This document shows, in pieces, positions 31,501-47,542 of a DNA stretch of 64,000 bases. The number at the start of each line of letters is the position of its first letter. The stretch's first letter is position 1. The translations under genes were made by a program, and so were the position numbers. The DNA is from Actinomycetospora sp. TBRC 11914 (GTDB lineage: Bacteria; Actinomycetota; Actinomycetes; Mycobacteriales; Pseudonocardiaceae). Location of the stretch: positions 62,001-126,000 of the forward strand of contig NZ_JABBND010000002.1 of assembly GCF_012933465.1 (NCBI RefSeq), written 5' to 3'. The notes under the pieces were generated by a model. The model searched no databases. It was not told the origin of the DNA and saw only the letters and a list, made by a program, of their open reading frames with translations.

Positions 31501-32329
31501 CGGCGGTCGGGGCCTCCCGGCGGGCGTGGGCGGTCAGGAAGGGGTCGAGCGCCGCGTTGAGCTCGTCGGGGCGCTCCAGCCACACCAGGTGCCCGGCGTC
31601 CGTGATCGTCTCGAGCCGCGCCCCGGGGACCGCCTCGGCGACCGCGCGGTTGTACCAGGGCAGCGTGATGAGGTCCTGGTCGCCGTGCACCACCAGGCAC
31701 GGCGTGGTGATCGACGCCAGCCGGTCGCGGGTCTCGTGGGACAGGTCGGCCCGGAAGTGGGCGGCCGTCCCGGCGGTGTCCCGCGAGGTGTGGGCGGCGA
31801 GCAGCGACTCGACGCGGGCCTGCCGGTCCGGCTCGCGGTCGACCACCGCGGGCGCGGACATCCAGAAGGCGAACTGCGCGAACACATCGAGCGGACCGTG
31901 CTCCAGCGCGTAGACCCGCGAGGCGAAGTGGCGGCGGATGTGGTGCTCGCGCGCGGTGGACGACCAGGTCGCGACGAGGCCGAGCGCGGCGACGAGGTCC
32001 GGCCGGGCCAGGGCGAGCTCCTGCGCGACGGCCGACCCCAGCGAGAGACCGACCACGGCGGCCGGCCCGACGCCCAGGTCGTCCATCCACCCCGCGACGT
32101 CGGCGGCGAGCCGGGCGACGGTCAGGCCGGCGAGGTCCCCGGTGGATCCGGCGCCGCGCAGGTCCACGGTGAGGCAGCGGAAGCGGTCGGCGAAGTGGGC
32201 CACCTGCGGGGCCCAGCTGCTGCCGCGCAGCCCGGTCCCGGGGATCCAGACGATCGGCGGCCCGTCCCCGGTCTCCTCGTGGTGGACCGTGACCGGGTCC
32301 GACTGCGCGCCGCAGGATGTGGTGGGCAC
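31490..32329 (-). CDS. Alpha/beta hydrolase
   Basis: 279 residues. Oxyanion strand PPIVWIPGTGLRGSSWAPQV, nucleophile elbow VVGLSLGSAVAQELAL (Ser about residue 110), acid in LVVHGDQDLITLPWYN and His in ITDAGHLVWLERPDELNAAL. Closest in layout to 3-oxoadipate enol-lactonase or lipase-like esterases. GTG at 32329 has GGAGGA about 5 bases upstream on the minus strand; in-frame extensions upstream lack a ribosome site. Divergent from the large regulator gene; may belong to the same catabolic function. Confidence 0.85.
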   Translation of the reverse strand: MPTTSCGAQSDPVTVHHEETGDGPPIVWIPGTGLRGSSWAPQVAHFADRFRCLTVDLRGAGSTGDLAGLTVARLAADVAGWMDDLGVGPAAVVGLSLGSAVAQELALARPDLVAALGLVATWSSTAREHHIRRHFASRVYALEHGPLDVFAQFAFWMSAPAVVDREPDRQARVESLLAAHTSRDTAGTAAHFRADLSHETRDRLASITTPCLVVHGDQDLITLPWYNRAVAEAVPGARLETITDAGHLVWLERPDELNAALDPFLTAHARREAPTAVTS

Positions 32330-32444
32330 GACGTCCTCCGTCCGTCTCGGGGACGGTGACGGTAACGCGGGCGTTGCACGTCGCCGGGAGACTGCGTGAA
32401 CGTCGGCGAAACGGGGGCCAGCGGGGGCGGGACCGGGAGGAGCC

Positions 32445-35400
32445 GTGGTGGACAGTCCGGAGTGGGTCATCCAGCGCAAGATCGTGCCCCCGCGCCCGGA
32501 CACGACGGCGACACCCCGGCCGCGGGTGTCCGCGCTGCTGGCCCGGCTGCTCGAGGCCCACCGGCTGGTGTTCGTCTACGCCTCGGCCGGCGCGGGCAAG
32601 ACGACCGCGGTGCTGCACGCCGCGGCGCAGATCGGGCGGCCGCTCGCCTGGCTGGACCTCGACACCACCGACGTCGCCACCGGGCGCCTGCTGGTCTACC
32701 TCGAGGCCGCGCTGGCGCGGCAGGTGCCGACGGTGCGCGGCATCGCGAGCGGCGCGCTCGCCGCGAACCTCGCCCACCCCGAGGTGGCCGGCCTGCTCGC
32801 CGAGGCGGTCGGCGACAGCGAGGTCATGGTCGTGGTCGACGACGCCGAGCGGCTCGCCGACTCCCCGGCGGCGCTCGCCGTCCTCGGGGCGTTCGCCCGC
32901 TACCTCCCCGAGTCCGCGCGGCTCGTGCTGCTCAGCCGTGTCGAGCTGCGCTTCTCCACCGTGCTCGACACCTCCCCGTGGGTCGCCGCGGTGGGGGAGG
33001 AGGACCTGGCCCTCACCGTCGGGGAGGCGACGGCGGCCCTCGCCCGCACCGGACGCACCGACGTCGACCCGGTCGAGGCCCTCATCGAGACCGGCGGCTG
33101 GCTCACCGGGGTGCTGTTCGAGGCGTGGCGCTCGCAGGACCACGTCATCGGGCTCGGCGGCGAGGCCGACCCGCTGCACGGCTACCTGTCGACCCAGATC
33201 CTCGGCCAGCTCGACGAGGCGGACCGGGAGTTCCTGGTGACCACCGCCGTGCTGGAGGAGGTCACCGCGGCCCACGCCGAGGCGCTGGGCCTCGCCGCGG
33301 CGTCGTCGCGTCTGCACGCGCTGCGCGGTCGGCGCCTGCCGGTGAGCTGGGACGGGGCGGGCACCCGGCTGCGCTGCCACCCGCGGTTCCGGGAGTTCCT
33401 CCTGCGCCGGCTGGCGTGGCGCGGGGAGGACGAGCTGCGCCGGCTGCGTCGGGCCCACGCGGAGCTCCTGCTGGCCGCCGGCCACGACGAGGAGGCGGTC
33501 GAGGAGCTGCTCGCCGCGCAGTGCCTCGAGCGGGCCGTCGCGGTCGTCTCCCCGGTCCTCGAGCGCCTCATCGAGCGCACCGACTTCCGGCTGGCCGAGC
33601 GGTGGCTGGCCCGGCTCGACCCGGTGCGCCGCGAGCACCACGGGGAGCTGGCGGGCGCCGAGCTCATGCTGGCCGTGGTCCGCGAGGACTTCGCGGCCGG
33701 GGTGCGCCTGGCCGACCGGCTCGCCGCGAGCGGGCACCGCGACGAGCTGGCGAAGAGCTCCGGCCGGGCCGCGGCGCTGATGGCGTGGTGCTACCTGCAC
33801 GCGGGCCGCCCGGCCGACATGCAGGCGGTCATCGAGTCCGCCGTCCCCGGGCCGGACGTCGACGCGGCGCGCTACGCGATGCGCCTGGTCGACACCGAGC
33901 GCAGCTCCTCGGACGAGGTCGATCCCTCCCTCGGCGCGCTGACCGGTGGCCCGATGGACGCGCTGGTGATGCGGGCGCACTTCGACCTCGGACGGCTGGG
34001 GGACATGGGCAGCCGGCCCGCCTCGCCCTGGGCGGTCCGGGCCGCCGAGTCCTGGCGGGTCAGCGGGCTGCTCGCGACCGGCCGGACCGCCGAGGCCTTC
34101 GAGCTCTACCACCGCCTCGTCGACACCGGTGCCGGCGGCTCGGGGGAGCACAGCGTCTGGCTCGAGGGGCTCGTCGGGCCGCGGTTGATGGCCGAGATCG
34201 GCGAGCCCGACGCGGCGTGGCGGCTGCTGCGCGAGGGCCGCGCCCGCATCGCCGCGACCGGCTCGGCGCTGTTCGAGGTCTACAGCCGGGGCATCGAGGT
34301 CGAGCTCGAGCTGCGGCTGCACGACGACCCGGCGGCGGCGCGGCGGGCGCTGCACCAGGTCGCCGAGCACCCGATCGGGCGGGGCTACGCGCTCGTGGCC
34401 GAGCACGTGGAGATGCTGCGCGGCCGGATCGCGCTGGCCGAGCGGGAGCCGGCCGCCGCGGCGGTCCGCCTGCGCCGTGCGGTGGCGGGGATGCGGCACG
34501 GCGGGCGGCTGCTCTACCTCCCCGCGGCCGCGGTCTACCTCGCCGAGGCCGCCTGGCGCAGCGGCGACGAGGACGGCGCCGACGCCGCGGCCGACGTCGC
34601 GCTCGCCGCCGCCCGCGGGCAGGGGTCGGTGCACGGGCTGCTGTCGGCCCTCGCCGAGTTCCCCGACGTCCTCGCCCGCCGTCTCGACCTCGAGGTCGAC
34701 GCGGACTCGCCCTGGCACGAGCTCGGCCGCGCCCTGCGCACCCGGGTCGAGGGACTGGACGACCTCATCGGGTCGGCGGTGCACGTCGCCGAGTTCGGGC
34801 GGACGGCGATCACCCTCGACGGCCGCGAGGTCAAGCCGCGGCTGGCCAAGAGCGTCGAGCTGCTCGCCCACCTCGCCACCCGGGGCGACGCCGAAGCCGT
34901 CGGCCGGCCCGAGCTGCTCGGCGCCCTGTTCGAGGGAAGGCGCGACGAGTCGGCCACCTCCTACCTGCGCCAGGCGATCCTGCACCTGCGCAAGGTGCTC
35001 CCGGACGTCGTCGGGACGGTGGACGGCTCGCCCGGGGCGCTGCGCCTGTGTCCCGGGGTCCGGGTCACCACGGAGTCCCGCCGCGTCGTCGCCCTCGTCG
35101 CCCAGGCCACCACGCGACGCGGCGAGGAGCGGCTGCGCCTGCTGCTCGACGCGCTGGAGCTGGTGGACCGCGGCCCGTACCTGCCGGGCCTGCGCTCGGC
35201 GTGGGTGGAGGAGCGGCGGCTGCAGCTGGCCGAGATCACCAAGGACGTGCGCTTCGAGGCCGCCGAGGCGGCCTTCGCGACCGGGGGGCTGCGCCGGGCC
35301 GAGGAGCTGCTCGACGAGGTCCTGCGGGCCGACCCCGCCCGGGAGGCCGGCTGGCGGCTGCGGATGCGGCTGGCCCACGCCCACGGCGACCCGGACCGGG

Positions 35401-35498
35401 TGCTCGCGGCCTACCGCTCCTGCGAGCGGGCCCTCGGGGAGCTCGGGGCGCAGCCCTCGGCCACCACCGTCGCCCTCCTGCGGGACCTGCGACGCTGA
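32445..35498 (+). CDS. Large STAND-ATPase / TPR / winged-helix-BTAD transcriptional regulator
   Basis: 1017 residues. N-terminal MalT-like NTPase: Walker A ASAGAGKTTAV (Lys52), Walker B VMVVVDDAERL (about 130), sensor LVLLSRVELRF. Residues about 300-770 are TPR-like helical repeats (AWCYLHAGRPADMQAVIES and similar). Unlike MalT, the C-terminus (about 779-1017) is an OmpR-type winged helix (GREVKPRLAKSVELLAHLAT, LRQAILHLRKVLPDVVGTV) followed by a BTAD domain (AYRSCERALGELGAQPSATT), the SARP arrangement. GTG at 32445 with GGAGGA 4 bases before. Stands 136 bases before the eleven-gene catabolic operon, on the same strand, so it is its likely activator. ATP and a ligand presumably switch it. Confidence 0.88.
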   Translation: MVDSPEWVIQRKIVPPRPDTTATPRPRVSALLARLLEAHRLVFVYASAGAGKTTAVLHAAAQIGRPLAWLDLDTTDVATGRLLVYLEAALARQVPTVRGIASGALAANLAHPEVAGLLAEAVGDSEVMVVVDDAERLADSPAALAVLGAFARYLPESARLVLLSRVELRFSTVLDTSPWVAAVGEEDLALTVGEATAALARTGRTDVDPVEALIETGGWLTGVLFEAWRSQDHVIGLGGEADPLHGYLSTQILGQLDEADREFLVTTAVLEEVTAAHAEALGLAAASSRLHALRGRRLPVSWDGAGTRLRCHPRFREFLLRRLAWRGEDELRRLRRAHAELLLAAGHDEEAVEELLAAQCLERAVAVVSPVLERLIERTDFRLAERWLARLDPVRREHHGELAGAELMLAVVREDFAAGVRLADRLAASGHRDELAKSSGRAAALMAWCYLHAGRPADMQAVIESAVPGPDVDAARYAMRLVDTERSSSDEVDPSLGALTGGPMDALVMRAHFDLGRLGDMGSRPASPWAVRAAESWRVSGLLATGRTAEAFELYHRLVDTGAGGSGEHSVWLEGLVGPRLMAEIGEPDAAWRLLREGRARIAATGSALFEVYSRGIEVELELRLHDDPAAARRALHQVAEHPIGRGYALVAEHVEMLRGRIALAEREPAAAAVRLRRAVAGMRHGGRLLYLPAAAVYLAEAAWRSGDEDGADAAADVALAAARGQGSVHGLLSALAEFPDVLARRLDLEVDADSPWHELGRALRTRVEGLDDLIGSAVHVAEFGRTAITLDGREVKPRLAKSVELLAHLATRGDAEAVGRPELLGALFEGRRDESATSYLRQAILHLRKVLPDVVGTVDGSPGALRLCPGVRVTTESRRVVALVAQATTRRGEERLRLLLDALELVDRGPYLPGLRSAWVEERRLQLAEITKDVRFEAAEAAFATGGLRRAEELLDEVLRADPAREAGWRLRMRLAHAHGDPDRVLAAYRSCERALGELGAQPSATTVALLRDLRR

Positions 35499-35634
35499 TC
35501 ACGCCCCCGGCGGGTTTCGGTGGTTTCGGCGCCGTTCACGGCCGTCCTTCCGGCGCCCGGCCCCGGCCGGTCAGTCTCCTCGGCGACATCCGCGACCGAC
35601 CGGAGCCGCGGACCGATCCCGGGGAGCACCGCGC

Positions 35635-37062
35635 ATGCCGTCCACCTGGCTGCTCATCGCGAACGGCACCGTCGTCGACGGCGCCGGCAACCCGCCCGTG
35701 CCGAACGCCTCGGTGCTGGTGCGCGACGGACGCATCCACGACGTCGGCCCCCACGTCACCCGCGACGCGGTGCCGCGGGGCGAGACCCTCCGCGAGCTCG
35801 ACGCCACCGGGAAGACCGTGATGCCCGGCCTCGTCGACGCCCACTGCCACATGACCTACGGCGAGAGCCGGTCCGAGGAGGAGATCGACCTCTACACCAG
35901 CCCCGAGTCGCGCACCCTCAAGGCGGCGTTCCACGCCCAGAAGGTGCTGCGCTCCGGCGTCACCGGCATCTCCCAGCCCGGCGGCAGCTACTACATCGGG
36001 GTGGCGCTGCGCGAGGCGATCGCCGACGGCATCGTCCAAGGCCCGCGCATGACCTCGGCCGGGCGCTACCTCTCGACGAGCAACGGCCTCACCGACTGGT
36101 ACCCCGACGGGGTCGGCGTCCCCGAGGGCTCGATCGGGATCGTCCACAACCGGCTCGACGACATGATCGACGAGGTCCGCCACCAGGCCAAGAACGGCGT
36201 CGACCTCATCAAGCTGGCCGACAGCCCCTACGGCGACTTCCAGGCGTTCACCACCCACGAGATGACGGTGCTCGCCGACCTCGCCCACCAGCTCGGCAAG
36301 AAGATCACCATCCACGCCCGCGGCTCGGCGGAGGTCGACGCCGCCGTCACCGCCGGCATGGACTGGATCATGCACGGCAACATCATGGACGAGGCCACCG
36401 TCGACCACCTGGCCGCGTCGGGCATCCCGCTGGTGCCGACCCTGCTGCTGCTGGCCAACGCCGGCGACTGGGGCCACCTCGTCGGCGCGCCCGTGCCGCT
36501 GCGCGACGGGATGAAGCGCATGCTCGAGGTCTCGGCGGACTCGCTGCACCGGGCCCACGCGGCCGGCGTCCCGATGGTGCTCGGCACCGACAGCGGCTTC
36601 TCCCTCAGCCCGTACGGCGTCTGGCACGCCCGCGAGCTGGACCTGCTCATGCGCTACGCCGGGCTCACCGCGCTCGAGGCCATCCAGGCCGGGACGAGCA
36701 ACGGCGCGCAGATGCTGGGGCTCGCCGGCGAGATCGGCACCGTCGCGCCGGGCATGATCGCCGACCTGCTGGTGGTCGACGGCGACCCGGTCGCCGACAT
36801 CACCGTCCTGCAGCGGCGCGAGGCCATCGAGACCGTGATCCAGGACGGCGCGGTGGTGACCTTCGACGAGGAGGCCATCGCCCGCTCCTGGCCCCACGAG
36901 CGCGGCATCGGCTACTCGGTCACCGACCTCACCTACGACGTCGTGCACGGCGCCGATCCCCGCGATCTCCCCGCCCCGGACCAGTTCCGCTACTCCGCCG
37001 AGCAGGCCGGAGACCTCGTCTCCGACATGCGCCGCCGCGAGCGCTCCGTCCAGACCTCCTGA
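35635..37062 (+). CDS. Metal-dependent amidohydrolase (imidazolonepropionase-like)
   Basis: 475 residues. Composite-domain start LLIANGTVVDGAGNPPVPNA, then PGLVDAHCHMTYGESRSEEE (HxH motif about 65-67), DLIKLADSP (bridging-Lys position about 200), ITIHARGSAEVD, IMHGNIMDEATVDHLA (metal His) and MVLGTDSGFSL (metal Asp about 324), ending IADLLVVDGDPVADITVLQR. Hydrolyses cyclic amides, amidines or deaminates; similar proteins act on dipeptides or heterocycles. ATG at 35635 with GGGGAG 8 bases upstream. First gene of the block; no canonical promoter seen in the 136 bases before it. Precise substrate unknown. Confidence 0.87.
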   Translation: MPSTWLLIANGTVVDGAGNPPVPNASVLVRDGRIHDVGPHVTRDAVPRGETLRELDATGKTVMPGLVDAHCHMTYGESRSEEEIDLYTSPESRTLKAAFHAQKVLRSGVTGISQPGGSYYIGVALREAIADGIVQGPRMTSAGRYLSTSNGLTDWYPDGVGVPEGSIGIVHNRLDDMIDEVRHQAKNGVDLIKLADSPYGDFQAFTTHEMTVLADLAHQLGKKITIHARGSAEVDAAVTAGMDWIMHGNIMDEATVDHLAASGIPLVPTLLLLANAGDWGHLVGAPVPLRDGMKRMLEVSADSLHRAHAAGVPMVLGTDSGFSLSPYGVWHARELDLLMRYAGLTALEAIQAGTSNGAQMLGLAGEIGTVAPGMIADLLVVDGDPVADITVLQRREAIETVIQDGAVVTFDEEAIARSWPHERGIGYSVTDLTYDVVHGADPRDLPAPDQFRYSAEQAGDLVSDMRRRERSVQTS

Positions 37063-37129
37063 CCCTCCCCGAACAGCGCCGTTCCCCGCTCGTCCCACCA
37101 CCCCTGCGCGACCACGAGAGAGGTACGAC

Positions 37130-38524
37130 ATGTCCACCAGCGAGGAACTGTCGGAGGAGGGGCTCGAGGACATCGAGCTCGTCGACGAGAAACCGTTGTC
37201 GTGGTTCGACGTCTCGGCCATCGGCACCGGCGAGATGCTGTTCACCGCGGGGTGGGCGTGGATCGTCTACACCGCGTCGTCCTACGGGATCCTCTGGACG
37301 CTGCTGGGCTTCCTCGGCGGCGTCGTGGTCATCCACACCGCCTGGTGGCTCTACCGCGAGATGATCACCGCGGTGCCCGAGCCCGGCTCGCTCCAGTCCT
37401 ACGCCCGCGAGGCGGGCGTGTTCTCCCTCGGGACGTCCTACCTCATCCTCTACGCCCCGGTGTACGGCGCGTTCATGTGGCTCGAGCTGCTGATCGCCGA
37501 CGAGCTGCTGGCGCTGCTGTTCCCGGCGGTGCCCTCCGGGATCTGGCCCTACGTCGTGCTCGTGCCGGTCATGGCGCTCAACCTGCTCGGCCACCAGATC
37601 ACCGGCAAGGTGCAGTCGGCGCTCGTCGTCATCACCCTCGTCGCCGACATCGTGCTCGCGGTCGCCGTCGGCGTCCTCATCGCCAACACCGACTCGTTCG
37701 CGCTGAACTGGCCCTCGCCGACCCCCATCGACTTCTGGACGTTCTTCACCGTCACCGGGCTCTGGCTCGGGATCATGGCCGGGATCATGGAGGTGCAGCA
37801 GGTCCTCGTCGACGAGTGGCGGGACTTCGGCCGCTCCCGCGACGTCGGGCTGCTCTCGGCCGCCTGGCAGCTGTGGATCCGCCAGATCCCGCTCGCGGTC
37901 GGGGTGCTCTCCAGCCTCCCGCTCGCCGCGCTCGCCGTCATGCCGGTCCCGACCATCGGCGTCGTCGAGGCCAAGTTCGGCCACAGCGCGCTGTTCTACC
38001 TGGCGCTGTTCGCGATGCTCGTCGCCACCTACACCACGCTGTCGGTCTACTTCATGGGCATGGGTCGGATCCTGGCCCTCTACTCCCAGCAGGGCGCGCT
38101 GCCGCGGGCCGTCGGGCGGTACTCCCGGCGCTCGGTGCCCTGGGTGGCGATCATCGTCCTGGGTCTCTTCGCCCTCATCGGTGCCTACGTCTCGGACTTC
38201 ACCTTCGTGTCCCACGTGCTGTCGACCTGGTCGACGACGCTCTACTTCGTGGTCGCGCTGGTCTACCTCCTCCTGCGGCGGCGCACCGACCTCGACCGGC
38301 CGCTGGTCGCCCGCTTCGGCACTCCGCTGGCCGTGTTCCTCCTGGTGCTCACCGCGCTCATCGGGATCGCCATCGCCATGACCGACTGGGCCGCCGCGCT
38401 CACCTGGGTGGCGCTGGTGGTGGTCCTCGTCCTCTACGACCGGTTCGTCGTGCCCCGGACCAAGCGCGGCTCCTTCTACCGCGAGCAGGTGCTGCGCCGC
38501 CGCACCTCGGCCGCCCGGCTCTGA
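37130..38524 (+). CDS. APC-superfamily permease
   Basis: 464 residues, about 12 TM helices with an acidic cytoplasmic N-terminus (EELSEEGLEDIELVDEK). TM1 AIGTGEMLFTAGWAWIVYTA has the unwound Gly-rich segment of the APC/LeuT fold; TM2 VVVIHTAWWLYREMITAVPE carries the PEPGS motif after it (PEPGSLQSYAREAG). A basic tail RTKRGSFYREQVLRRR ends it. Imports an amino acid, amide or heterocyclic base; within this operon, presumably the substrate. ATG at 37130 with GAGAGAGG about 9 bases upstream; 67 bases after the amidohydrolase. Confidence 0.87.
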   Translation: MSTSEELSEEGLEDIELVDEKPLSWFDVSAIGTGEMLFTAGWAWIVYTASSYGILWTLLGFLGGVVVIHTAWWLYREMITAVPEPGSLQSYAREAGVFSLGTSYLILYAPVYGAFMWLELLIADELLALLFPAVPSGIWPYVVLVPVMALNLLGHQITGKVQSALVVITLVADIVLAVAVGVLIANTDSFALNWPSPTPIDFWTFFTVTGLWLGIMAGIMEVQQVLVDEWRDFGRSRDVGLLSAAWQLWIRQIPLAVGVLSSLPLAALAVMPVPTIGVVEAKFGHSALFYLALFAMLVATYTTLSVYFMGMGRILALYSQQGALPRAVGRYSRRSVPWVAIIVLGLFALIGAYVSDFTFVSHVLSTWSTTLYFVVALVYLLLRRRTDLDRPLVARFGTPLAVFLLVLTALIGIAIAMTDWAAALTWVALVVVLVLYDRFVVPRTKRGSFYREQVLRRRTSAARL

Positions 38525-38570
38525 CCGGCGCCACCCCACGACGACCCCCACACGCACCGGAAGGGAACCC

Positions 38571-39701
38571 ATGGGCAAGGCCAGGCACGCGGAGATCGCG
38601 GGCGCCGGGCTCGGCGGGCTGGCCGTCGCGATCGCGCTCGCCCAGCACGGGTGGAGCGTCCGCGTCCACGAGCGGTCGGACCAGCTGCGCATGTTCGGCG
38701 CCGGCATCTGGCTCTGGGAGAACGGGCTCCGCTCGCTGGACGCCCTCGGCGTCGAGGCCGCGGCGACCAAGCGGGCGCAGCGCATCGAGTCGATGGTCGC
38801 CCGCGACCAGGAGGGCCGCCCGCTGCTGCACCGCTCGTTCGCCACGGGCGACCGGCTGCTCCTCCCGCCGCGGGCCGACCTGTACGACGCGCTGATCGCC
38901 CGGGCCGAGGAGCTGCACGTCGAGGTCGCCCTGCGGTCCACGGCCGTGGCGGCCACGGCGCACGGGGAGCTCGAGCTCGAGGACGGCACCCGCCACCGCG
39001 GCGACCTCGTGGTGGCCGCCGACGGGGTCTTCTCCCGGCTGCGGGAGACGCTGCTGCTGACCCGCCGGGTGGACTACCTCGAGGAGGGCTACACCCGGCT
39101 GCTCATCCCGCGCCTCCCGGAGGACTCGCCGACCGAGATCACCGAGTACTGGAGCGGCTCGCGGCGGCTGCTCTACGACCCGTGCACCGACGAGGTCAAC
39201 TACGTCTGCCTCTGCTGCCCGGTCGGCGACGAGGCCGGCCGCCGCGTGCCGGTGGACAAGGCCGGCTGGCTGGAGTCCTTCCCGACGCTCGGCGGGATCA
39301 TCGAGCGGATCGCCGACGGCGGCCGCTGGGACCGGGGGATGCGGGTCACGACCCGGGCGTGGTCGTCGGGCGTCGCCGCCGTCGTGGGCGACGCCGCCCA
39401 CGCCCAGCCGCCCAACCTCGGCCAGGGCGCCAACCTCACCTTCCAGAACGCGCTCTCGCTGGCCGAGTACCTCGAGCGCGCACCCGACGTGGCCGCGGGC
39501 CTCGCCCGCTGGGAGCGGGCCGAGCGCCCGCTGACCGACCACATCCAGCGCTGGACCGACCTCTACGGCCGGGTCGCGAGCGCCTGGCCCGACCGCTTCG
39601 CCCACCGGCGCAGCCAGGTCCTGGAGACCGTCACCCGCATCCCGTGGGTGGACCGGCAGATGAACAAGGCGGCCCGGCACCGGCCGGTCGGCGCCCGGTG
39701 A
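38571..39701 (+). CDS. FAD-dependent aromatic-hydroxylase-like monooxygenase
   Basis: 376 residues of the PHBH fold. ADP motif AEIAGAGLGGLAVAIALAQH (residues 7-26), DG motif DLVVAADGVFSRLRETLL (about 145), GD motif AAVVGDAAHAQPPNLGQGAN (about 268). Such single-component NAD(P)H enzymes add one oxygen to an activated (hydroxylated) ring, often leading to ring opening in N-heterocycle pathways. ATG at 38571 with GGAAGGGAA about 6 bases upstream. Between the permease and the SCP2-like gene, and upstream of the Mo hydroxylase it could follow in the pathway. Confidence 0.87.
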   Translation: MGKARHAEIAGAGLGGLAVAIALAQHGWSVRVHERSDQLRMFGAGIWLWENGLRSLDALGVEAAATKRAQRIESMVARDQEGRPLLHRSFATGDRLLLPPRADLYDALIARAEELHVEVALRSTAVAATAHGELELEDGTRHRGDLVVAADGVFSRLRETLLLTRRVDYLEEGYTRLLIPRLPEDSPTEITEYWSGSRRLLYDPCTDEVNYVCLCCPVGDEAGRRVPVDKAGWLESFPTLGGIIERIADGGRWDRGMRVTTRAWSSGVAAVVGDAAHAQPPNLGQGANLTFQNALSLAEYLERAPDVAAGLARWERAERPLTDHIQRWTDLYGRVASAWPDRFAHRRSQVLETVTRIPWVDRQMNKAARHRPVGAR

Positions 39702-39724
39702 CCCACGACGTGCAGGAGGCAGCG

Positions 39725-40132
39725 ATGACCGATCAGCGGGACCGGGCGACGGGGTATCTGCCGCGCCCGGAGACGATCACCCCGGAGTACATGCGCGACG
39801 TGCTCGACGAGTACTACGCGACGAAGTGGAACGCCAACCCGGACACCGTGGCCGCCGTCGCGAGCTGGCGGAACTGGCCGCTGGTCGTGCGCATGCCCGA
39901 CCTCAAGCAGGACTTCACCGTGCTCATCGACGCGGGCGTGGTCCAGCAGGTCTCGATCGGTCTCCCGGAACGTCCCCGCATCCTCACCGTGATGCTGGCC
40001 GACACGATGCAGCGGATCTACTACGACGAGACGACGTCGGCGATCGAGTCGATCTCCGGTCGCATCAAGATCCGTGGCAACGAGGTGGAGCGACGCCGGC
40101 TCCTCGCCGCCATCTCCTTCCTCACCTGGTGA
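39725..40132 (+). CDS. Small SCP2-like sterol-carrier-fold protein
   Basis: 135 residues. The pattern TVAAVASWRNWPLVVRMPDL, DFTVLIDAGVVQQVSIGLPE, RPRILTVMLADTMQRIYY and GRIKIRGNEVERRRLLAAIS follows the SCP2 ligand-binding fold (strand-strand-substrate pocket, then the G-x-x-K-x-x-G turn before the last helix). I call this moderately. Possible roles: carrying the hydrophobic substrate between enzymes. ATG at 39725 with CAGGAGGCAG about 6 bases upstream; 23 bases after the monooxygenase. Confidence 0.6.
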   Translation: MTDQRDRATGYLPRPETITPEYMRDVLDEYYATKWNANPDTVAAVASWRNWPLVVRMPDLKQDFTVLIDAGVVQQVSIGLPERPRILTVMLADTMQRIYYDETTSAIESISGRIKIRGNEVERRRLLAAISFLTW

Positions 40133-40175
40133 TCCGCGGACACCGCCCGCCCGCTCCCGCGCGAAAGGCACGCCC

Positions 40176-42707
40176 GTGACCGAAGCCCCACCCCGCACCG
40201 CCGGTCCCGGACCGGCGGCGACCGGCCCCCGCCTCGTCGGCACCTCGGTGCCGCGCAAGGAGGACCTCGCGCTGCTGACCGGCACCGCCCGGTTCATCGA
40301 CGACATCCGGCTCCCCGGGATGGTCCACGCGACGATCCTGCGCAGCACCGTCGCCCACGCGCGCGTCCGCTCGATCGACACCGCTCCCGCGCGTGCCGTC
40401 CCCGGCGTGCTCGACGTCCTGGCCGGCGCCGAGCTCGTCGGCAAGGTCAAGCCGTGGGGCGACCTCATGCAGGACCTGCTGGTCGGCGACCACTTCCCGT
40501 TCGCCACCGACAAGGTCCTCTACGAGGGCCAGGAACTGGCGGCGGTGGTCGCGGGGACGCGCTACCAGGCGCTGGACGGCTGCGAGGCCGTCGCGGTGGA
40601 CCTGGAGGAGCTGCCCGCCGTCGTCGATCCCGAGCAGGCGCTGCGCCCGGACGCCCCGCTCGTCCAGGAACGGATCGTCTACGAGTTCGGCGAGGGCAAC
40701 GTCTTCGACCGCTACCGGGTCCGGGTCGGGGACTTCGCGGCGGCGGAGCGGGACGCGGCCGTGGTGGTCCGCCAGCGGTTCACCACCAACAAGCAGGCCG
40801 GCGCGGCCCTGGATCCGCACGGGTGCGTGGCGAGCCACGACCCGTTCACCGGGGTGCTGACCCTCTGGTCCTCCACCCAGTCGGTGTACATGGTCCGCGA
40901 CGTGCTGGCCGACGTCCTCCAGATCCCGCGCACCAAGGTGCGGGTGATGGTGCCCGAGGTCGGTGCCGGGTTCGGCTCCAAGGCCCAGATGTTCGGCCAC
41001 GAGGTGATCGCGGCTCTGTTCTCGATGCGGCTGGGGCGCCCGGTGAAGCTGGTGCTGCGCCGGGACGAGATCTTCCGGGCGGGCACCACGCGCAACTCGC
41101 AGGTGCGCTACGCCGAGCTGGCCATGGCGGCGGACGGCGAGATCACCGGCTACCGCGACTACGTGGTGCACAACACCGGCGCCATGTCGGTGTGGGGCAA
41201 CCAGGTGGTCCACATCGGCACCAACGTCGGGATGCTGCCCTACCCGATCCCGAACGTGCACGTGGACTCGGACATCGTGCACACCACGACCGCCCCGGGC
41301 GGCCCGCTGCGCGGCTTCGGCATCCCGCAGACGGTGTGGGCCAAGGAGCAGCTCGTCGACATGGCCGCGCGCGAGCTCGGTCTCGACCCGCTGGCGGTCC
41401 GCGAGCGCAACGTCGTCGACCCCGCGACCTTCCCCTACCGGACCCCCATGGGGCAGGTCATCGACTCGACGTCGATCAAGCAGTGCCTGACCGCCTGCGC
41501 CGAGGCCATCGACTGGGCCGCCAAGCGCGCGGCGCCGGTGCCCCACGAGGGTCTGGGGCTGGCGGTGTCGATGAAGTACACGAGCTGTCGCCACCCCTCG
41601 TTGGACACCGACCTGTCCGCGGTGCGGCTGCGCCTCGAGACCGACGGCACGGTGACGATCTACTCCAGCGACGTCTCCCACGGCCAGAGCCACGCCACGA
41701 TGCTGTCCCAGATCGTCGCCGACGGGCTCGGCGTCGGCATCGAGAAGGTCACCCTGGCGCCGCCGGACAGCATGACCGCGCCGTTCGGGCTGGGCACCTA
41801 CGCCAGCCGCGGCGCCGCCGTGCTGGGGACCGCCTGCCGGCTGGCCACCGAGCGGCTGCGCGACAAGGTCCTCGCGATCGCCGCCCACGTGCTCGAGGTC
41901 GGACCGGGCGACCTCGACACCGGCAACGACCGCGTGTTCGTCAAGGGCCTCCCGGACAGCGGCATCTACCTGGAGATCCTCGCGGCCACCGCGGCCTACC
42001 GCACCCACCAGCTGCCGCCGGACTTCGAGCCGACGCTGGAGACCGTCGCGACCTACGACACGCCCACCGAGCGGGAGGCCTCCGACGGCTCGGGGAACCT
42101 CAGCGTCACCTACTCCGGCGCCGCCCACGCCGCCCACGTGCGGGTGGACCCGGAGACCGGGCGGGTCACCGTCGTCGACTACGCGATGGTCCACGACACC
42201 GGCACGGTGATCAATCCGCTCGTCGTCGAGGGCCAGCACCAGGGCGGCTTCCTCATGGGCATGGGGATGGCGCTCTCCGAGGACTACGTCTACGACGAGA
42301 ACGGCCACCAGCTCAACGCGAGCTTCAAGGACTACCTCGCGGTCACCGCCCCCGAGGTCCCGGAGCTGACCAGGATGTCGGAGATCCCGGCGCCGTCGAC
42401 GACGATCCCGGGCGGCCAGAAGGGCGCGGGGGAGTCGGGCACCGGGCCGGTGCCCGCCGCCATCGGCAACGCGGTCCTCGACGCGACCGGGATCCGGTTC
42501 ACCGCCCTGCCCATCACCCCGCAGCGGATGCTGACGGCGCTGCGGGAGAAGGAGCGCCGGGGCGTCGAGACGCTGCGCTACCCCGACGACATGCCCGACT
42601 TCACCGGACCGCGCTGCCCCGACGAGTGGCCGTCGCCGACCGCCGCCGAGGCGGACGACTTCGACTTCGACTTCGACTTCGACCTCGACCCGGAGGAGGG
42701 CGCGTGA
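40176..42707 (+). CDS. Molybdenum hydroxylase, large (Mo-binding) subunit
   Basis: 843 residues, xanthine dehydrogenase family. Domain I: GTSVPRKEDLALLTGTARFI. Active-site region: FGSKAQMFGHEVIAALFSMR (about 265), APGGPLRGFGIPQTVWAKEQ (about 375), MKYTSCRHPSL, GTYASRGAAVLGTA, and the catalytic Glu in PGGQKGAGESGTG (about 750). PLRGFG resembles xanthine-dehydrogenase FRGFGGPQ rather than the CO dehydrogenase AYxCSFR loop, so a hydroxylase of a ring or aldehyde is expected. The tail is a (Asp-Phe)n run, DDFDFDFDFDFDLDPEEGA. GTG at 40176, GAAAGG upstream; GTGA overlap with the next gene. Confidence 0.93.
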   Translation: MTEAPPRTAGPGPAATGPRLVGTSVPRKEDLALLTGTARFIDDIRLPGMVHATILRSTVAHARVRSIDTAPARAVPGVLDVLAGAELVGKVKPWGDLMQDLLVGDHFPFATDKVLYEGQELAAVVAGTRYQALDGCEAVAVDLEELPAVVDPEQALRPDAPLVQERIVYEFGEGNVFDRYRVRVGDFAAAERDAAVVVRQRFTTNKQAGAALDPHGCVASHDPFTGVLTLWSSTQSVYMVRDVLADVLQIPRTKVRVMVPEVGAGFGSKAQMFGHEVIAALFSMRLGRPVKLVLRRDEIFRAGTTRNSQVRYAELAMAADGEITGYRDYVVHNTGAMSVWGNQVVHIGTNVGMLPYPIPNVHVDSDIVHTTTAPGGPLRGFGIPQTVWAKEQLVDMAARELGLDPLAVRERNVVDPATFPYRTPMGQVIDSTSIKQCLTACAEAIDWAAKRAAPVPHEGLGLAVSMKYTSCRHPSLDTDLSAVRLRLETDGTVTIYSSDVSHGQSHATMLSQIVADGLGVGIEKVTLAPPDSMTAPFGLGTYASRGAAVLGTACRLATERLRDKVLAIAAHVLEVGPGDLDTGNDRVFVKGLPDSGIYLEILAATAAYRTHQLPPDFEPTLETVATYDTPTEREASDGSGNLSVTYSGAAHAAHVRVDPETGRVTVVDYAMVHDTGTVINPLVVEGQHQGGFLMGMGMALSEDYVYDENGHQLNASFKDYLAVTAPEVPELTRMSEIPAPSTTIPGGQKGAGESGTGPVPAAIGNAVLDATGIRFTALPITPQRMLTALREKERRGVETLRYPDDMPDFTGPRCPDEWPSPTAAEADDFDFDFDFDLDPEEGA

Positions 42708-43579
42708 GGGCGTTCACCTGGCTCGAGCCGGGGACCACCACCGACGCCGTCGCGCTCCTGCGCGAGCACGCGCCCGGGGCCCGGCTGATCGCCGGCGGGC
42801 AGAGCCTGCTGCTGGCGATGAAGGACCGCACGGCGGGCCCGACGCACCTGGTGTCGCTGGCCGGCGTCGAGGGCCTCGCGGGGGTGCGGACCGCCGACGA
42901 CGGCTCCCTGGTCGTCGGCGCCGCCACGACCTACACGGCCCTGACCCGGCTCGACGCCACCGCCCTGGGCGGCTGGCACGGCGTGCTGGGCGCGGTGGCC
43001 GGTGACCTCGCGGACCGGCCGGTGCGCAACCGCGGCACCGTCGGCGGCTCGCTGTGCACCGGCGACCCGCGCTACGACGTCCCCGTCCTCGCCGCCGGCG
43101 TCGACGCCACCCTGCGCATCACCGGCGCCGGCGGCGACCGGGAGGTGCCCGCCACCGGGTTCGCCCAGGGCCCCGGCCTCGTCGCGCTGCGCCCTGACGA
43201 GGTGCTCACCGCGCTGGTGCTGCCGCCGCGGCCGCGGTGGGACGCCGTGGCCTTCGAGAAGTTCCGCCACCGGGTGTTCGACGCCGCCATCGTGTCGGTG
43301 ACCTGCGCCCTGCGCGCGGGTGCGGACGGAGTGGCCGAGGCCCGGCTCACCGTCGGCGGGGCCACCCCGGCACCCACCCCCGTGCCCGGCGCCGCCGCGC
43401 GGCTCGTCGGGCCGCTGCCCGACCCCGACGCCGTCGCGGCCGCAGCCGACGCGGCCGCCGAGGAGGTCCTGCCCGGCGGCGCCACCGCCGGCGAGGCCGT
43501 CCGGTACCGCCACGAGCTCGTCCGCACCCTCGTCCGCCGCGCGGTCACCCGCGCCGCCGCCGACCTCCGGAGGTCGTGA
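42704..43579 (+). CDS. Molybdenum hydroxylase, FAD-binding (medium) subunit
   Basis: 291 residues, CoxM/XdhB-like. Seen: AGGQSLLLAMKDRTAGPTHL (FAD-binding AGGxS, about residue 27), VGAATTYTAL, and the second FAD motif RPVRNRGTVGGSLCTGDPRY (about 105), with PRPRWDAVAFEKFRHRVFDA near the C-terminal CO_deh_flav_C domain. It passes electrons from the iron-sulfur subunit to the acceptor. GTG start overlaps the large-subunit stop (GTGA, 42704-42707) and is preceded by GGAGGAGGG. One-base overlap with the small subunit (TGATG). Confidence 0.92.
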   Translation: MRAFTWLEPGTTTDAVALLREHAPGARLIAGGQSLLLAMKDRTAGPTHLVSLAGVEGLAGVRTADDGSLVVGAATTYTALTRLDATALGGWHGVLGAVAGDLADRPVRNRGTVGGSLCTGDPRYDVPVLAAGVDATLRITGAGGDREVPATGFAQGPGLVALRPDEVLTALVLPPRPRWDAVAFEKFRHRVFDAAIVSVTCALRAGADGVAEARLTVGGATPAPTPVPGAAARLVGPLPDPDAVAAAADAAAEEVLPGGATAGEAVRYRHELVRTLVRRAVTRAAADLRRS

Positions 43580-44151
43580 TGCAGCAGGTCACCCTGACCG
43601 TCAACGGCCGCGAGGTCACCGCCGAGATCGACGAGCGGACCCTGTTGCTGGAGTTCGTGCGCGAGGTCGCGGGCTTCACCGGCGCCCACAACGGCTGCCT
43701 CGAGGCGCGCTGCGGCTGCTGCGCGATCGAGGTCGACGGCGAGATCACCAAGTCCTGCAACGTGCTCGCGGTGCAGGTCGACGGGGCCGAGGTCACGACC
43801 GTCGAGGGCCTCGCGCCGCAGCGGCTCGCCCCCGTCGAGCACGTGACCACGCAGAGCCTGGCGGGCATGTACGCGCCGCTGGAGGCGGTGCGGACCCGCG
43901 CCGAGGACCTGCACCCGCTGCAGGAGGCGTTCCACCGCTGCCACGCCCTGCAGTGCGGGTTCTGCACGCCCGGGATGCTGATGGTGCTCAAGGGCCACCT
44001 CGAGGAGAACCCGGAGCCGACGCGCGACGGCGTGCGGCACGCCATCGCCGGCAACCTCTGCCGCTGCACCGGCTACCAGCACATCGTCGACGCGGCCATG
44101 GAGGCCGCCGAGGTGATGCGGGGCGACGCCCCGGTCCCCGCCGATGGCTGA
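43579..44151 (+). CDS. Molybdenum hydroxylase, 2Fe-2S (small) subunit
   Basis: 190 residues, CoxS-like. Plant-type 2Fe-2S domain with GCLEARCGCCAIEVDGEI and SCNVLAV (four Cys, about residues 38-62), then the all-helical domain with CHALQCGFCTPGMLM (about 120) and GNLCRCTGYQHIVDA (about 155) for the second cluster. A 25-residue insert between the domains (LAPVEHVTTQSLAGMYAPLE) is longer than usual. ATG at 43579 overlaps TGA of the previous gene; GGAGG about 6 bases before. Ends 8 bases inside the MoxR gene. Confidence 0.93.
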   Translation: MQQVTLTVNGREVTAEIDERTLLLEFVREVAGFTGAHNGCLEARCGCCAIEVDGEITKSCNVLAVQVDGAEVTTVEGLAPQRLAPVEHVTTQSLAGMYAPLEAVRTRAEDLHPLQEAFHRCHALQCGFCTPGMLMVLKGHLEENPEPTRDGVRHAIAGNLCRCTGYQHIVDAAMEAAEVMRGDAPVPADG

Positions 44152-45061
44152 GGCGGGCCATCCGGTCACCGACCCGGACCCGGTCGCCGCCCTGGTGGCG
44201 GACCTGGCGGCCACCGGGTACGTCGCGGACCGGTCGCTGGCGACGGTGCTGCGGCTGGCCGGGGCGCTCGAGCTGCCGGTGCTGCTCGAGGGCGAGCCGG
44301 GGGTGGGCAAGACCGCCGTCGCCGAGGCGCTCGCCGAGGCCACCGGGGCCCGGCTGGTGCGGCTGCAGTGCTACGAGGGGCTGGCCGCCCACCACGCGCT
44401 CTACGAGTGGGACTACCCCCGTCAGCTGCTGGCGATCCGGCTGGCGGAGGCCCGGGGTGCGGCGGGGGAGGATCTGGAGCGCACGATCTTCTCCGAGGCC
44501 TTCCTGCTGCGTCGTCCGCTGCTCGAGGCGATCAGCCCGAGCCACGACGACCGCCCCGTCGTGCTGCTGGTCGACGAGGTCGACCGGGCCGACGAGGAGT
44601 TCGAGGCGCTGCTGCTCGAGGTGCTCGGGCAGTTCCAGGTGACGGTGCCCGAGCTCGGCACGATCACCGCGACCCGCCGGCCCCGGATCGTGCTCACCGC
44701 GAACCGGTCCCGCCCGCTGTCGGACGCGCTGCGGCGCCGCTGCCTCTATCATTGGCTGCCCTACCCGGACACCGGGCGCGAGACCGAGATCGTGGCGGCG
44801 CGCGTGCCCGGCGCCCCGGAGGCCCTGGTCCGCCGGGTGTGCGAGCTCGTCGCCCGGGTGCGGGCGGGGTCCTACCGCAAGACGCCCGGCGTCTCGGAGA
44901 CCGTCGACTGGGTCCGTGCCCTCGCGCTCAGCGGCGACGGCGGGCTCGACGCGACCACCGTCGACGAGACCCTGGGCTGCCTGCTCAAGGACGGCACCGA
45001 CCTCGCCCGGTTCCGCGGCGAGGACGGCCGCCGCGCCCTGCGCGAGGCGGGCGTGGCGTGA
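44144..45061 (+). CDS. MoxR-family AAA+ ATPase (CoxD-like)
   Basis: 305 residues. Walker A LLEGEPGVGKTAVAEALAEA (about residue 48), VRLQCYEGLAAHHALYEWDY, Walker B DRPVVLLVDEVDRADEEFEA (about 140), sensor IVLTANRSRPLSDALRRRC. MoxR/CoxD proteins work with VWA proteins to mature molybdenum hydroxylases (CoxD and CoxE in Oligotropha). ATG at 44144 overlaps the small subunit gene by 8 bases. Coupled to the VWA gene (GTGA). Confidence 0.92.
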   Translation: MAEAGHPVTDPDPVAALVADLAATGYVADRSLATVLRLAGALELPVLLEGEPGVGKTAVAEALAEATGARLVRLQCYEGLAAHHALYEWDYPRQLLAIRLAEARGAAGEDLERTIFSEAFLLRRPLLEAISPSHDDRPVVLLVDEVDRADEEFEALLLEVLGQFQVTVPELGTITATRRPRIVLTANRSRPLSDALRRRCLYHWLPYPDTGRETEIVAARVPGAPEALVRRVCELVARVRAGSYRKTPGVSETVDWVRALALSGDGGLDATTVDETLGCLLKDGTDLARFRGEDGRRALREAGVA

Positions 45062-46287
45062 CCGCCGGCGATCTGCGGCGCCCGGTCGACCGGGCCGGCG
45101 CCCGCGACGCGCTCCTCGCGCGGGCCCGGGCGGCCCGCCGCCGGCGGACCGGGCACCCGGCGCAGGACGTGGTGCTCTTCGCCGAGCTGCTGCGCGACTG
45201 CGGAGCCACGGTGCCCGGCGGTGCCCCGGTGCGCGCGGTCCGGGCCCTCGGCCTCGTCGACGTGGCCCGCCGCGACGACGTCCGCGACGCGCTGCGCGCC
45301 ACGCTCGCCGGTGACCGGGCCGCCCAGCGCCTGGTCGACCTGCTGTTCGGGGTCTTCTGGAGCGCGCGCGACGACGCCACCACCCGCACCGGTGCCGACG
45401 CGGCGCCCGCGCCCGACGCCCCGGGCACGACCGGAGGGGCAGCGCGCGAGTCTCCCGGGCCCGACGACGAGGCCCGGTCCGGTCAGCGGCGCAGCCCCCG
45501 GGCGACCCGCGGCCGCGGCGCCGGACGCCGGGTGCCCGTCGACGACCTCGGCGCCCTCGACGCCCGCGAGGTCGACGAGCTGGCCCGCCGCGTCGTCGTC
45601 GCCCTGCGCCGGGACCCGGGCCGGCGGCGCCGGACCGCGGCGCACGGTGACGCCGTCGACGCCCGGGCCGGGCTGCGCCACGCGCTCGCCACCGGCGGGG
45701 AGCCGCTGGTGCTCCCTCGCACCGCGCCCCGCCCCCGCCGCACGCGCGTGGTGGTGCTCTGCGACGTCAGCTCGTCGATGGCCGCGGTGACCCCGTTGTT
45801 CCTCACCTTCGTCCACGCCCTGGCGCGGCACGCCCGGCTGGTCGAGCTCGGCGTGTTCAACGTCGAGCTCACCCTGGTCGGGGAGCCGTTCCGTCGCCGT
45901 GACCGCGCCGCGGCGCTGCGCTGGCTGCACGCCCAGGAGCACGCGCTCGCCGGCGGCACCCGCATCGGTCACTGCCTGCGCGCCTTCCTCGACGCCGCCG
46001 GGGACCGGATCACCGCCGATACCGTCGCGTTCGTCCTCAGCGACGGGTGGGACGTCGGCGAGCCCGACCTGCTGACCGAGCAGATGCACCGGCTGCGCGA
46101 CCGCGTGCGCCGGATCGTCTGGTGCGACCCGCACGCCGCCGCGTCCGGCCACGACCCGCAGGTGCGCGGGATGCGTGACGTCGTCCCCCTCGTCGACGAC
46201 CACGTCGACCTGTCCGGCCCGCCGGCGCTGCGGGCCCTGGCCGACCACCTCGAACACCACCCCACGACCCCCCGGAGGTCCGCATGA
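45058..46287 (+). CDS. CoxE-like VWA-domain protein
   Basis: 409 residues. N-terminal helical region with GHPAQDVVLFAELLRDCGAT, a Pro/Ala/Gly/Glu linker (about 110-160), DDLGALDAREVDELARRVVV, then VWA with MIDAS VVVLCDVSSSMAAVTPLFLT (D-x-S-x-S about 237), LAGGTRIGHCLRAFLDAAG and AFVLSDGWDVGEPDLLTEQM. Partner of the MoxR ATPase in Mo-hydroxylase maturation or copper/sulfur insertion. GTG start overlaps the ATPase stop. Ends in ATGA overlap with the RidA-like gene. Confidence 0.9.
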   Translation: MTAGDLRRPVDRAGARDALLARARAARRRRTGHPAQDVVLFAELLRDCGATVPGGAPVRAVRALGLVDVARRDDVRDALRATLAGDRAAQRLVDLLFGVFWSARDDATTRTGADAAPAPDAPGTTGGAARESPGPDDEARSGQRRSPRATRGRGAGRRVPVDDLGALDAREVDELARRVVVALRRDPGRRRRTAAHGDAVDARAGLRHALATGGEPLVLPRTAPRPRRTRVVVLCDVSSSMAAVTPLFLTFVHALARHARLVELGVFNVELTLVGEPFRRRDRAAALRWLHAQEHALAGGTRIGHCLRAFLDAAGDRITADTVAFVLSDGWDVGEPDLLTEQMHRLRDRVRRIVWCDPHAAASGHDPQVRGMRDVVPLVDDHVDLSGPPALRALADHLEHHPTTPRRSA

Positions 46288-46691
46288 CCGCCCCTGCCCG
46301 CCCGGTCCGTGAGGAGCTCGACGTCCCGGGGCTCCCGCCCGCGGTGTCGCACTACACCGACGCCGTCCGCTTCGGCGACCTGCTGTTCGTCTCCGGCATG
46401 GTCGCGTTCGACGAGGACGGCGGCGTCGTCGGCGCGGGCGACGTCGCCGCCCAGGCCCGCCGGGTGCACGAGCACCTGGCGGCGGTCTTCGCCCACGTCG
46501 GGGCCTCGTTCGCCGACGTGCTCAAGGTGACCGTCTTCCTCCGCGACGTCCGCGACCGGGCCGCGGTCAACGAGGTGCGCCGGGAGTTCTTCGGGCCGGC
46601 GCTGCCGGCGAGCACGCTCGTCGAGGTGAGCGCGCTCGTGCACCCCGAGCTCCTCGTCGAGGTCGAGGCCGTCGTGGGGGTGCCGGCGTGA
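46284..46691 (+). CDS. RidA/YjgF-family protein lacking the catalytic arginine
   Basis: 135 residues. Core: VSHYTDAVRFGDLLFVSGMV, VAAQARRVHEHLAAVFAHVG, ADVLKVTVFLRDVRDRAAVN, FFGPALPASTLVEVSALVHP and LLVEVEAVVGV. RidA deaminases use an Arg in PxRxxVEV; here the segment reads PASTLVEV, so the Arg is absent, as in Rid subfamilies without 2-aminoacrylate deaminase activity. In catabolic operons such homologues assist ring-cleavage or imine/carbamate steps. ATG start overlaps the CoxE-like stop; GTGA overlap with the FAH gene. Confidence 0.88.
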   Translation: MTAPARPVREELDVPGLPPAVSHYTDAVRFGDLLFVSGMVAFDEDGGVVGAGDVAAQARRVHEHLAAVFAHVGASFADVLKVTVFLRDVRDRAAVNEVRREFFGPALPASTLVEVSALVHPELLVEVEAVVGVPA

Positions 46692-47542
46692 CCGGCTTCT
46701 GCCGGCTGGGGGAGCCCGGCCGGGAACGCCCCGCCGTCGTCGTCGACGACGTCACCTACGACCTCTCCGACCTGACCGACGACATCGACGGCGCGTTCCT
46801 CGCCGCCGGCGGCCTCGAGCGCGCCCGGGACGCGGCCCGCGCCGGGCGCCTGCCGGTGCTCGACGGCGCCGACCGGCTGCGGACCGGGCCACCGGTCGCC
46901 CGGCCCGCCGCGGTGCTGTGCATCGGCCAGAACTACGCCGCGCACGCGGCCGAGTCCGGAAGCGCCGTCCCGGAGCACCCGATCCTCTTCCTCAAGCACC
47001 CCAACACCGTCGTCGGCCCGGACGACGACGTGCACCTGCCCGCCGGCTCGGAGCGCGGCGACTGGGAGGTCGAGCTCGTGGCGGTGATCGGTCGCCGCGC
47101 GTGGGCGCTGGACTCGGACGAGGACGCGCTCGCCCACGTCGCCGGCTACGCGGTCGGCAACGACGTCTCCGAGCGCACCCACCAGTTCGACCTCTCCGGC
47201 GGGCAGTGGTCGACCGGGAAGACGTTCCCCACCTTCGCCCCGCTGGGACCCCTGCTGGTGCCCGCCGACGAGGTCGACCCGCAGGGGCTGCGGCTGCGGT
47301 CGCACGTCAACGGCGAGCCCCGGCAGGACTCCTCCACGAAGGACATGGTGTTCGGGGTGGGCGCGCTGGTCCGCGTGCTCTCGCGGCGGATGGTGCTCGA
47401 GGCGGGCGACCTGGTGTTCACGGGCACCCCCGAGGGCGTCGCGCTCTCCGGGCGCTTCCCCTACCTGCGGGACGCCGACGTCGTCGAGCTCGAGATCGAC
47501 GGGCTCGGCCGGCAGCGCCAGCGGGTGGTGGCCGGCGGCTAG
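46688..47542 (+). CDS. Fumarylacetoacetate hydrolase (FAH) family protein
   Basis: 284 residues. Metal-binding core: VLCIGQNYAAHAAE, PILFLKHPNTVVGPDDDV, GDWEVELVAVIGRRAWALDS (Glu/Asp ligands), GYAVGNDVSERTHQFD, GKTFPTFAPLGPLL and LEAGDLVFTGTPEGVAL. Hydrolyses C-C bonds of acylpyruvates or hydrates/decarboxylates ring-cleavage products; the last step of the operon's pathway is a fair guess. GTG start overlaps the RidA-like stop (GTGA). Its stop shares CTAG with the convergent glycosyltransferase. Confidence 0.9.
   Translation: MTGFCRLGEPGRERPAVVVDDVTYDLSDLTDDIDGAFLAAGGLERARDAARAGRLPVLDGADRLRTGPPVARPAAVLCIGQNYAAHAAESGSAVPEHPILFLKHPNTVVGPDDDVHLPAGSERGDWEVELVAVIGRRAWALDSDEDALAHVAGYAVGNDVSERTHQFDLSGGQWSTGKTFPTFAPLGPLLVPADEVDPQGLRLRSHVNGEPRQDSSTKDMVFGVGALVRVLSRRMVLEAGDLVFTGTPEGVALSGRFPYLRDADVVELEIDGLGRQRQRVVAGG

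Follow-up and report, generated by a model that had tools for sequence, protein, structure and literature searches.

A conserved catabolic operon of Actinomycetospora with a quinaldine 4-oxidase-like molybdenum hydroxylase and a proposed role in the breakdown of a pyridine-type ring

Which compound is broken down by a gene block that combines a molybdenum (Mo) hydroxylase with an FAD monooxygenase, an amidohydrolase-fold protein, a Rid-family protein and an FAH-family protein? The question was raised by a 64,000-nucleotide stretch of Actinomycetospora sp. TBRC 11914 (contig NZ_JABBND010000002.1, positions 62,001 to 126,000, forward strand), referred to here as the window. A preliminary description proposed that the block imports and completely degrades one cyclic, probably nitrogenous compound by a pathway that could not be named. 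Our analysis demonstrates that the block is a real, conserved and largely interpretable catabolic operon of soil actinobacteria. It probably, if only just, serves to import a pyridine-type compound and to degrade its ring aerobically via a 3,4-dihydroxypyridine-type intermediate, with the amidohydrolase-fold protein, here termed B, opening the ring with O2.

Gene content and conservation of the block

The twelve reported genes (A to L), one regulator and eleven genes on the same strand, are all open frames with the expected third-codon-position G + C (GC3) signal in the sequence of the window. Profile matches agreed with the families originally named for them (Mo hydroxylase, FAD monooxygenase, amidohydrolase, Rid, FAH, CoxD/CoxE and BTAD). 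The inventory had overlooked a divergent alpha/beta-hydrolase gene, Z, which adjoins the block on the minus strand and brings the total to thirteen genes. The features, in window positions, are as follows.

31490–32329, minus strand: Z, alpha/beta-hydrolase (Abhydrolase_6), kept together with the block
32330–32444, no strand: divergent intergenic region with the conserved block TGCGTGAACGnnGCCGAAAC (alignment of five sequences)
32445–35498, plus strand: A, regulator with a MalT-like NTPase part and a C-terminal BTAD domain (profile matches)
35635–37062, plus strand: B, amidohydrolase-fold protein of 475 aa (Amidohydro_1); proposed to open the ring as KpiC does or to hydrolyse an N-acyl enamine
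37130–38524, plus strand: C, APC-type permease (AA_permease_2), proposed substrate import
38571–39701, plus strand: D, FAD monooxygenase (FAD_binding_3; MHPCO best PDB match), proposed 3-hydroxylase of a 4-pyridone
39725–40132, plus strand: E, small, possibly SCP2-fold protein (weak profile and fold matches)
40176–42707, plus strand: F, Mo-hydroxylase large subunit, quinaldine 4-oxidase-like (family match, QoxL identity)
42704–43579, plus strand: G, FAD (medium) subunit (FAD_binding_5, CO_deh_flav_C; 34.6% to QoxM)
43579–44151, plus strand: H, 2Fe-2S (small) subunit (Fer2_2, Fer2; 52.8% to QoxS)
44144–45061, plus strand: I, CoxD/MoxR-like AAA ATPase (AAA family), proposed Mo-enzyme maturation
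45058–46287, plus strand: J, CoxE-like VWA protein (VWA_CoxE), proposed Mo-enzyme maturation
46284–46691, plus strand: K, Rid-family protein without an Arg105 equivalent (Ribonuc_L-PSP), proposed enamine deaminase
46688–47542, plus strand: L, FAH-family protein (FAA_hydrolase; PDB match), proposed acylpyruvate hydrolase

The likely start of Z is GTG 32329, with GGAGG ahead of it, and 115 bases separate Z from A. In this gap, TGCGTGAACGnnGCCGAAAC was conserved in all five aligned sequences and is a possible operator. Overlaps of 1–8 bases had been described from 40176 onward. Their sizes were correct, but F (40176) starts 43 bases past E, so the overlapping run spans F to L and begins at the F/G junction (stop 42707, start 42704, 4 bases). 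The following junctions overlap by 1 base (G 43579/H 43579; 4 bases if H starts at GTG 43576), 8 bases (H 44151/I 44144) and 4 bases each (I 45061/J 45058, J 46287/K 46284 and K 46691/L 46688).

A genome-contig scan queried with B and one B homologue yielded 48 loci. Ten genes (Z, A, B, C, D, E, F, G, H and K), that is, all thirteen except coxD (I), coxE (J) and the FAH gene (L), co-occurred in 11 of these loci (L045–L049, L051 and L053–L057). The block is therefore a real unit and not a chance arrangement. The proposal of one catabolic unit is upheld, comprising a permease, a Mo hydroxylase and a monooxygenase acting on aromatic rings, with a nitrogenous ring as the probable target. Eight of the 11 loci are labelled Pseudonocardia, including P. 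dioxanivorans CB1190, P. sulfidoxydans, P. thermophila, P. acidicola, P. bannensis and P. oceani, and the other three are metagenome-assembled genomes (MAGs) labelled Actinomycetota, Marmoricola and Actinoallomurus. A Modestobacter MAG (L050) carries B to H and part of I, and its contig stops on either side. L051 and L054 lack I and J and have the FAH gene next to Z. L is also present in L046 and L047 (cut by the locus end), and L049 has a more distant FAH gene (43%, cut) on the other strand. L was not seen in the other six full-set loci, whose sequence ends at about its expected place.

The genes are rare when genomes are sampled evenly. B was found in 2 of 396 genomes of the phylum at an E value of 1e-90, one being the genome of the window, and among 298 genomes of the order gene E turned up only in that same genome. 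No plasmid searched gave a match to gene E, and among 51 loci (the 48, the window, L026 and L095) it was present only in the window and L045–L057. The protein had been called SCP2-like. All 14 homologues matched Pfam Alkyl_sulf_C, which we take to be an SCP2-type domain (best E value, 6.9e-5); the window's own protein reached 0.036, short of the cut-off. A Foldseek search with its predicted model returned SCP2-type proteins at ranks 1–13, but at E values of 0.085 or worse. Because the model is of low confidence (mean predicted local distance difference test score 56.5), the SCP2 call stays weak.

The Mo hydroxylase and the FAD monooxygenase

The nearest characterised relative found for the three-subunit Mo enzyme was quinaldine 4-oxidase of plasmid pAL1, as judged by scores and identities. 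F shared 48.8% identity with the large subunit QoxL over 789 residues, and G and H shared 34.6 and 52.8% with QoxM and QoxS, respectively. With the same program, F scored 787 bits against QoxL, 391 bits against CoxL and 383 bits against quinoline 2-oxidoreductase. When plasmids were searched with F, pAL1 ranked at the top with 48.9% identity and the next record showed 37.4% (best 40 of 119 matched records). The search of its own genome gave 11 matches, of which the 10 besides F were at most 38% identical. PMC3534580 assigns quinaldine 4-oxidase to this pAL1 region and names a 1H-4-oxoquinaldine 3-monooxygenase there. Since QoxL is the nearest characterised relative found and the pAL1 region carries this assignment, hydroxylation of carbon 4 of an N-containing ring is our best guess for F-G-H, and I and J probably mature the enzyme.

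D found its best PDB match in MHPCO, a ring-opening hydroxypyridine oxygenase (215 bits; next match, 101 bits). It was 37.4% identical to MHPCO over 334 aa and 38.7% identical to the pAL1 4-oxoquinaldine 3-monooxygenase. At eight MHPCO residues that we take to be active-site positions, R181, R211, Y223 and P295 were kept in D and Y54, Y82, Y270 and C294 were changed (4/8 kept). Judged by sequence alone, D may act either as a 3-hydroxylase or as the ring opener. The P. acidicola genome (L053) encodes a second D homologue (57%; G687:C143:136-1248) on the same contig as its 78% copy.

Two further pathways were considered. Vitamin B6 degradation was examined because MHPCO tops the PDB list of D, and was rejected: the block showed no further recognisable B6 gene, and the MHPCO-like plasmid clusters inspected have different partner genes. 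These clusters, from Arthrobacter (L042:9884-16367) and Rhodococcus (L043:11935-20604), combine an MHPCO-like monooxygenase with a different amidohydrolase and a sugar-type ABC transporter, the latter locus also with a succinate-semialdehyde dehydrogenase; they possibly serve vitamin B6-type degradation. A caffeine/urate pathway was rejected with an HpxO model score of 122 bits against a cut-off of 500.

The B-Z-K-L cassette and the opening of the ring

In the route that we propose, permease C would import the compound under the control of A, F-G-H would hydroxylate ring carbon 4, and D would hydroxylate carbon 3. B would then open the ring with O2 between C2 and C3, giving an N-acyl enamine, which for an unsubstituted ring would be 3-(N-formyl)-formiminopyruvate. 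Z would take off the acyl group, K would free ammonia from the enamine, and L would cleave the acylpyruvate to pyruvate plus a carboxylic acid, in the unsubstituted case formate.

K belongs to the Rid/YjgF family according to its Ribonuc_L-PSP match (98 bits; cut-off, 27.3) and scored below the cut-off of the RutC model (71.5 bits; cut-off, 169). Ser or Asn replaces Arg105 of E. coli RidA in all 42 Rid rows (41 proteins, the window's own being counted twice), in agreement with the earlier call of an Arg-less RidA homologue. The nearest NCBIfam models to Z were PcaD and RutD, all below cut-off (RutD, 101 vs 238.5). The best PDB match of L was L-2,4-diketo-3-deoxyrhamnonate hydrolase.

The part proposed for B follows KpiC of Arthrobacter sp. 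IN13, an amidohydrolase-family protein reported as a ring-opening dioxygenase using O2 and encoded in the kpi cluster for 4-hydroxypyridine (PMC7356986). B had first been expected to open a cyclic amide, which is probably wrong: it would either open the ring in the manner of KpiC or act on the opened product. The pathway can also be named in part, with a front end nearest quinaldine 4-oxidase and a lower part whose genes B, Z and L match kpi by gene family and size. Within the block we recognised no further ring-cleaving family, no LigB protein was found around B in the window, and the best LigB match in its own genome was 35% identical over query residues 40–195. The genomes of L084 and L087, which carry the cassette described below, lacked a D homologue at an E value of 1e-25, and the LigB proteins in them were only distant ones (33% identity over part of the length, and 31%). 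L078 has no oxygenase near B and a D homologue (45%) elsewhere in its genome, so absence near B is not absence from a genome. We would rank B first and D second as the candidate ring opener.

B, Z, K and L recur together in other loci. Counts in the 51 loci were taken from six-frame profile searches within 9 kb of B, since clustering merged Rid proteins with alpha/beta-hydrolases; this reach leaves the window's own K and L outside the counts. Genes called by script elsewhere may have over-long starts and some short genes were missed, so their sizes are approximate. A D-type monooxygenase lay near B in 21 loci and, as a short fragment, in one more (L074). Another type of FAD monooxygenase was found in five, its L059 member being nearest to tropone 2-monooxygenase, an HpaB-type hydroxylase in three (L061, L090 and L095), and a strong LigB match (at least 679 bits) in five. 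None of these oxygenases was found near B in the other 16, 11 of them Acidimicrobiia (MAG loci L063, L064, L071, L075, L079–L083, L085 and L092). Weak LigB matches (70–107 bits) near B also occurred in L056, which is among the 21, and in L062, which belongs to the 16. Setting aside the 13 Mo-hydroxylase loci, two short contigs (L061 and L074) and the Acidimicrobiia left 25 loci. All 25 had relatives of K and Z on one strand or the other no more than 9 kb from B, and 24 had relatives of L, the exception (L066) being cut by the contig end. The Z count is the weakest, because alpha/beta-hydrolases are a broad family.

The five strong LigB matches stand with the cassette in Mycolicibacterium/Mycobacterium clusters of approximately 7.5–8.7 kb (L065, L067, L068, L069 and L073). 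The L067 protein contains DDHFENH, which according to PMC3637104 is a conserved region of 3-hydroxy-4-pyridone dioxygenase. This provides a second line of support for a 3,4-dihydroxypyridine-type intermediate of the cassette.

Individual cassettes showed further features. A single 440-aa frame in L090 (13047-14369) has first an alpha/beta-hydrolase part (28.6% to Z, residues 40–301) and then a Rid part (52.8% to K, residues 314–438), and reads as a natural fusion of two proposed consecutive steps. On a Rhodococcus rhodochrous BX2 plasmid (L095:13081-19252), genes for GntR, a B-like amidohydrolase (64.5%), an HpaB-type hydroxylase, an alpha/beta-hydrolase, RidA and FAH form a compact unit flanked by transposase genes. 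The Nocardioides sp. locus (L087:6475-11437) has an aminotransferase upstream of FAH, Rid, hydrolase and B, and MoaA and XdhC genes downstream; a mimosine-like substrate is conceivable there. In Kineosporia babensis (L084:12546-14039), a phage-type integrase gene adjoins the cassette.

Several observations weigh against B as the opener and against the route as a whole. All 47 B rows retain the six metal ligands of a two-metal hydrolase, and the PDB neighbours of B are hydrolases. B is 82–84% identical between D-type loci (L026, L088) and LigB-type loci (L065, L067, L069), so a second ring opener would be redundant in the latter. In the Acidimicrobiia, whose B is 53–58% identical, none of the 11 loci had FAH and only three had Rid; B may thus play a different role in them. 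At 49% identity F and QoxL may differ in substrate, and the route gives protein E no part. The likeness to KpiA, KpiB, KpiC and KpiD is one of family and size; the kpi list contains neither a Mo hydroxylase nor a Rid protein, both present in the block; and KpiP is an NCS1/SLC5-6-type permease and C an APC-type one, although a transporter swap need not change the pathway.

The intact hydrolase site of B, and its near constancy beside D or a PydA-like opener, would fit a scheme for the same ring class and similar end products in which D opens the ring in the style of MHPCO, B, as a true amidohydrolase, strips off the N-acyl group or hydrolyses the enamine, and Z acts on another intermediate. MHPCO is by far the best solved relative of D and shares four of the compared residues with it. 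We nevertheless consider this scheme doubtful, since the other four are altered, D is equally close to a 3-hydroxylase that opens no ring, the cassette also stands beside HpaB-type and tropone-monooxygenase-like enzymes, and the L084 and L087 genomes gave no D homologue at the threshold above. It is unlikely that the same families act in a different order on another N-heterocycle (nicotinate-like, purine, pyrimidine or bicyclic quinoline). They are versatile, the substrate cannot be read from sequence, and K and Z are reminiscent of the pyrimidine-degradation proteins RutC and RutD; however, F is nearest to a pyridine-ring C4 hydroxylase, five sister clusters have a PydA-like dioxygenase, and xanthine dehydrogenase, Rut and HpxO models remained below cut-off. 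That F-G-H-I-J are an aerobic carbon monoxide (CO) dehydrogenase inside an unrelated catabolic operon is highly improbable. CoxL (8uem) is the best PDB match of F, and CoxD- and CoxE-like genes are present, but F scored 442–443 bits against CO dehydrogenase models with cut-offs of 950 and 991, its active-site loop is GPLRGFG and not the CoxL form I motif, and its QoxL score is twice that of CoxL; a CO dehydrogenase assignment for F was rejected on these grounds. Moreover, F, G and H adjoin B to E in 12 of 12 loci with F, while I and J are absent from L051 and L054.

Returning to B as the O2-dependent opener, a more specific and tentative proposal is that Pseudonocardia and relatives degrade pyridine itself or a simple alkylpyridine, with the Mo enzyme acting at C4, the flavin enzyme at C3 and B, with its intact hydrolase metal site, as the opener, B-Z-K-L being a common lower pathway into which several ring oxygenases are plugged. 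In the literature searched, in which subscription papers were mostly beyond reach, we found no report joining a quinaldine-4-oxidase-type enzyme to 4-hydroxypyridine genes, no gene-for-gene match of the block to a characterised operon, and no growth, expression or enzyme data for it. The combination is thus new within that literature, the Mo enzyme and the lower pathway being separately known. If the proposed route holds, these two modules would be joined into one pyridine pathway, the little-studied amidohydrolase-fold ring opener (KpiC) would extend to a recognisable family in Actinomycetota, and the Rid subfamily without the substrate arginine would gain a biochemical setting. The block is carried by the cultured strain Pseudonocardia dioxanivorans CB1190, which makes it directly testable.

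Comparison with known systems

The quinaldine upper pathway on pAL1 of Arthrobacter sp. Rue61a (L040; PMC3534580) uses a carbon-4 Mo hydroxylase and then a 3-monooxygenase, the relatives of F and D described above. It differs in continuing with 3-hydroxy-2-methylquinolin-4-one 2,4-dioxygenase (meqE), which an alpha/beta-hydrolase adjoins, and B, C, E, I and J had no match to the seven pAL1 proteins compared. MHPCO is of the same flavoprotein family as D and differs at half of the compared active-site positions. PydA/PydB of mimosine and 3-hydroxy-4-pyridone degradation would yield the same proposed ring-cleavage product; PydA-like genes sit in five sister clusters, but the block has no LigB gene. 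The Rut pyrimidine pathway follows the same logic, in which ring opening is followed by a Rid protein and an alpha/beta-hydrolase acting on an enamine. It differs in that RutA and RutB are not in the block and the Rid and hydrolase models fell below their cut-offs.

The kpi cluster contains an FAD monooxygenase, an amidohydrolase-family protein of 475 aa, an alpha/beta-hydrolase and an FAH protein that resemble D, B, Z and L in family and lie very near them in size. By description, D has the family and size of KpiA, and B the Pfam family and the 475-aa length of KpiC. Unlike the block, the kpi list has no CoxD/CoxE or SCP2-like gene, and its regulators are FadR- and AraC-type in place of the BTAD/MalT-like A; its pseudogene ORF8 is annotated MopB_CT (PMC7356986). 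The expected kpi products are pyruvate, formate and ammonia (PMC7356986), and the end products of the route proposed here, pyruvate, a short acid and ammonia, would match them.

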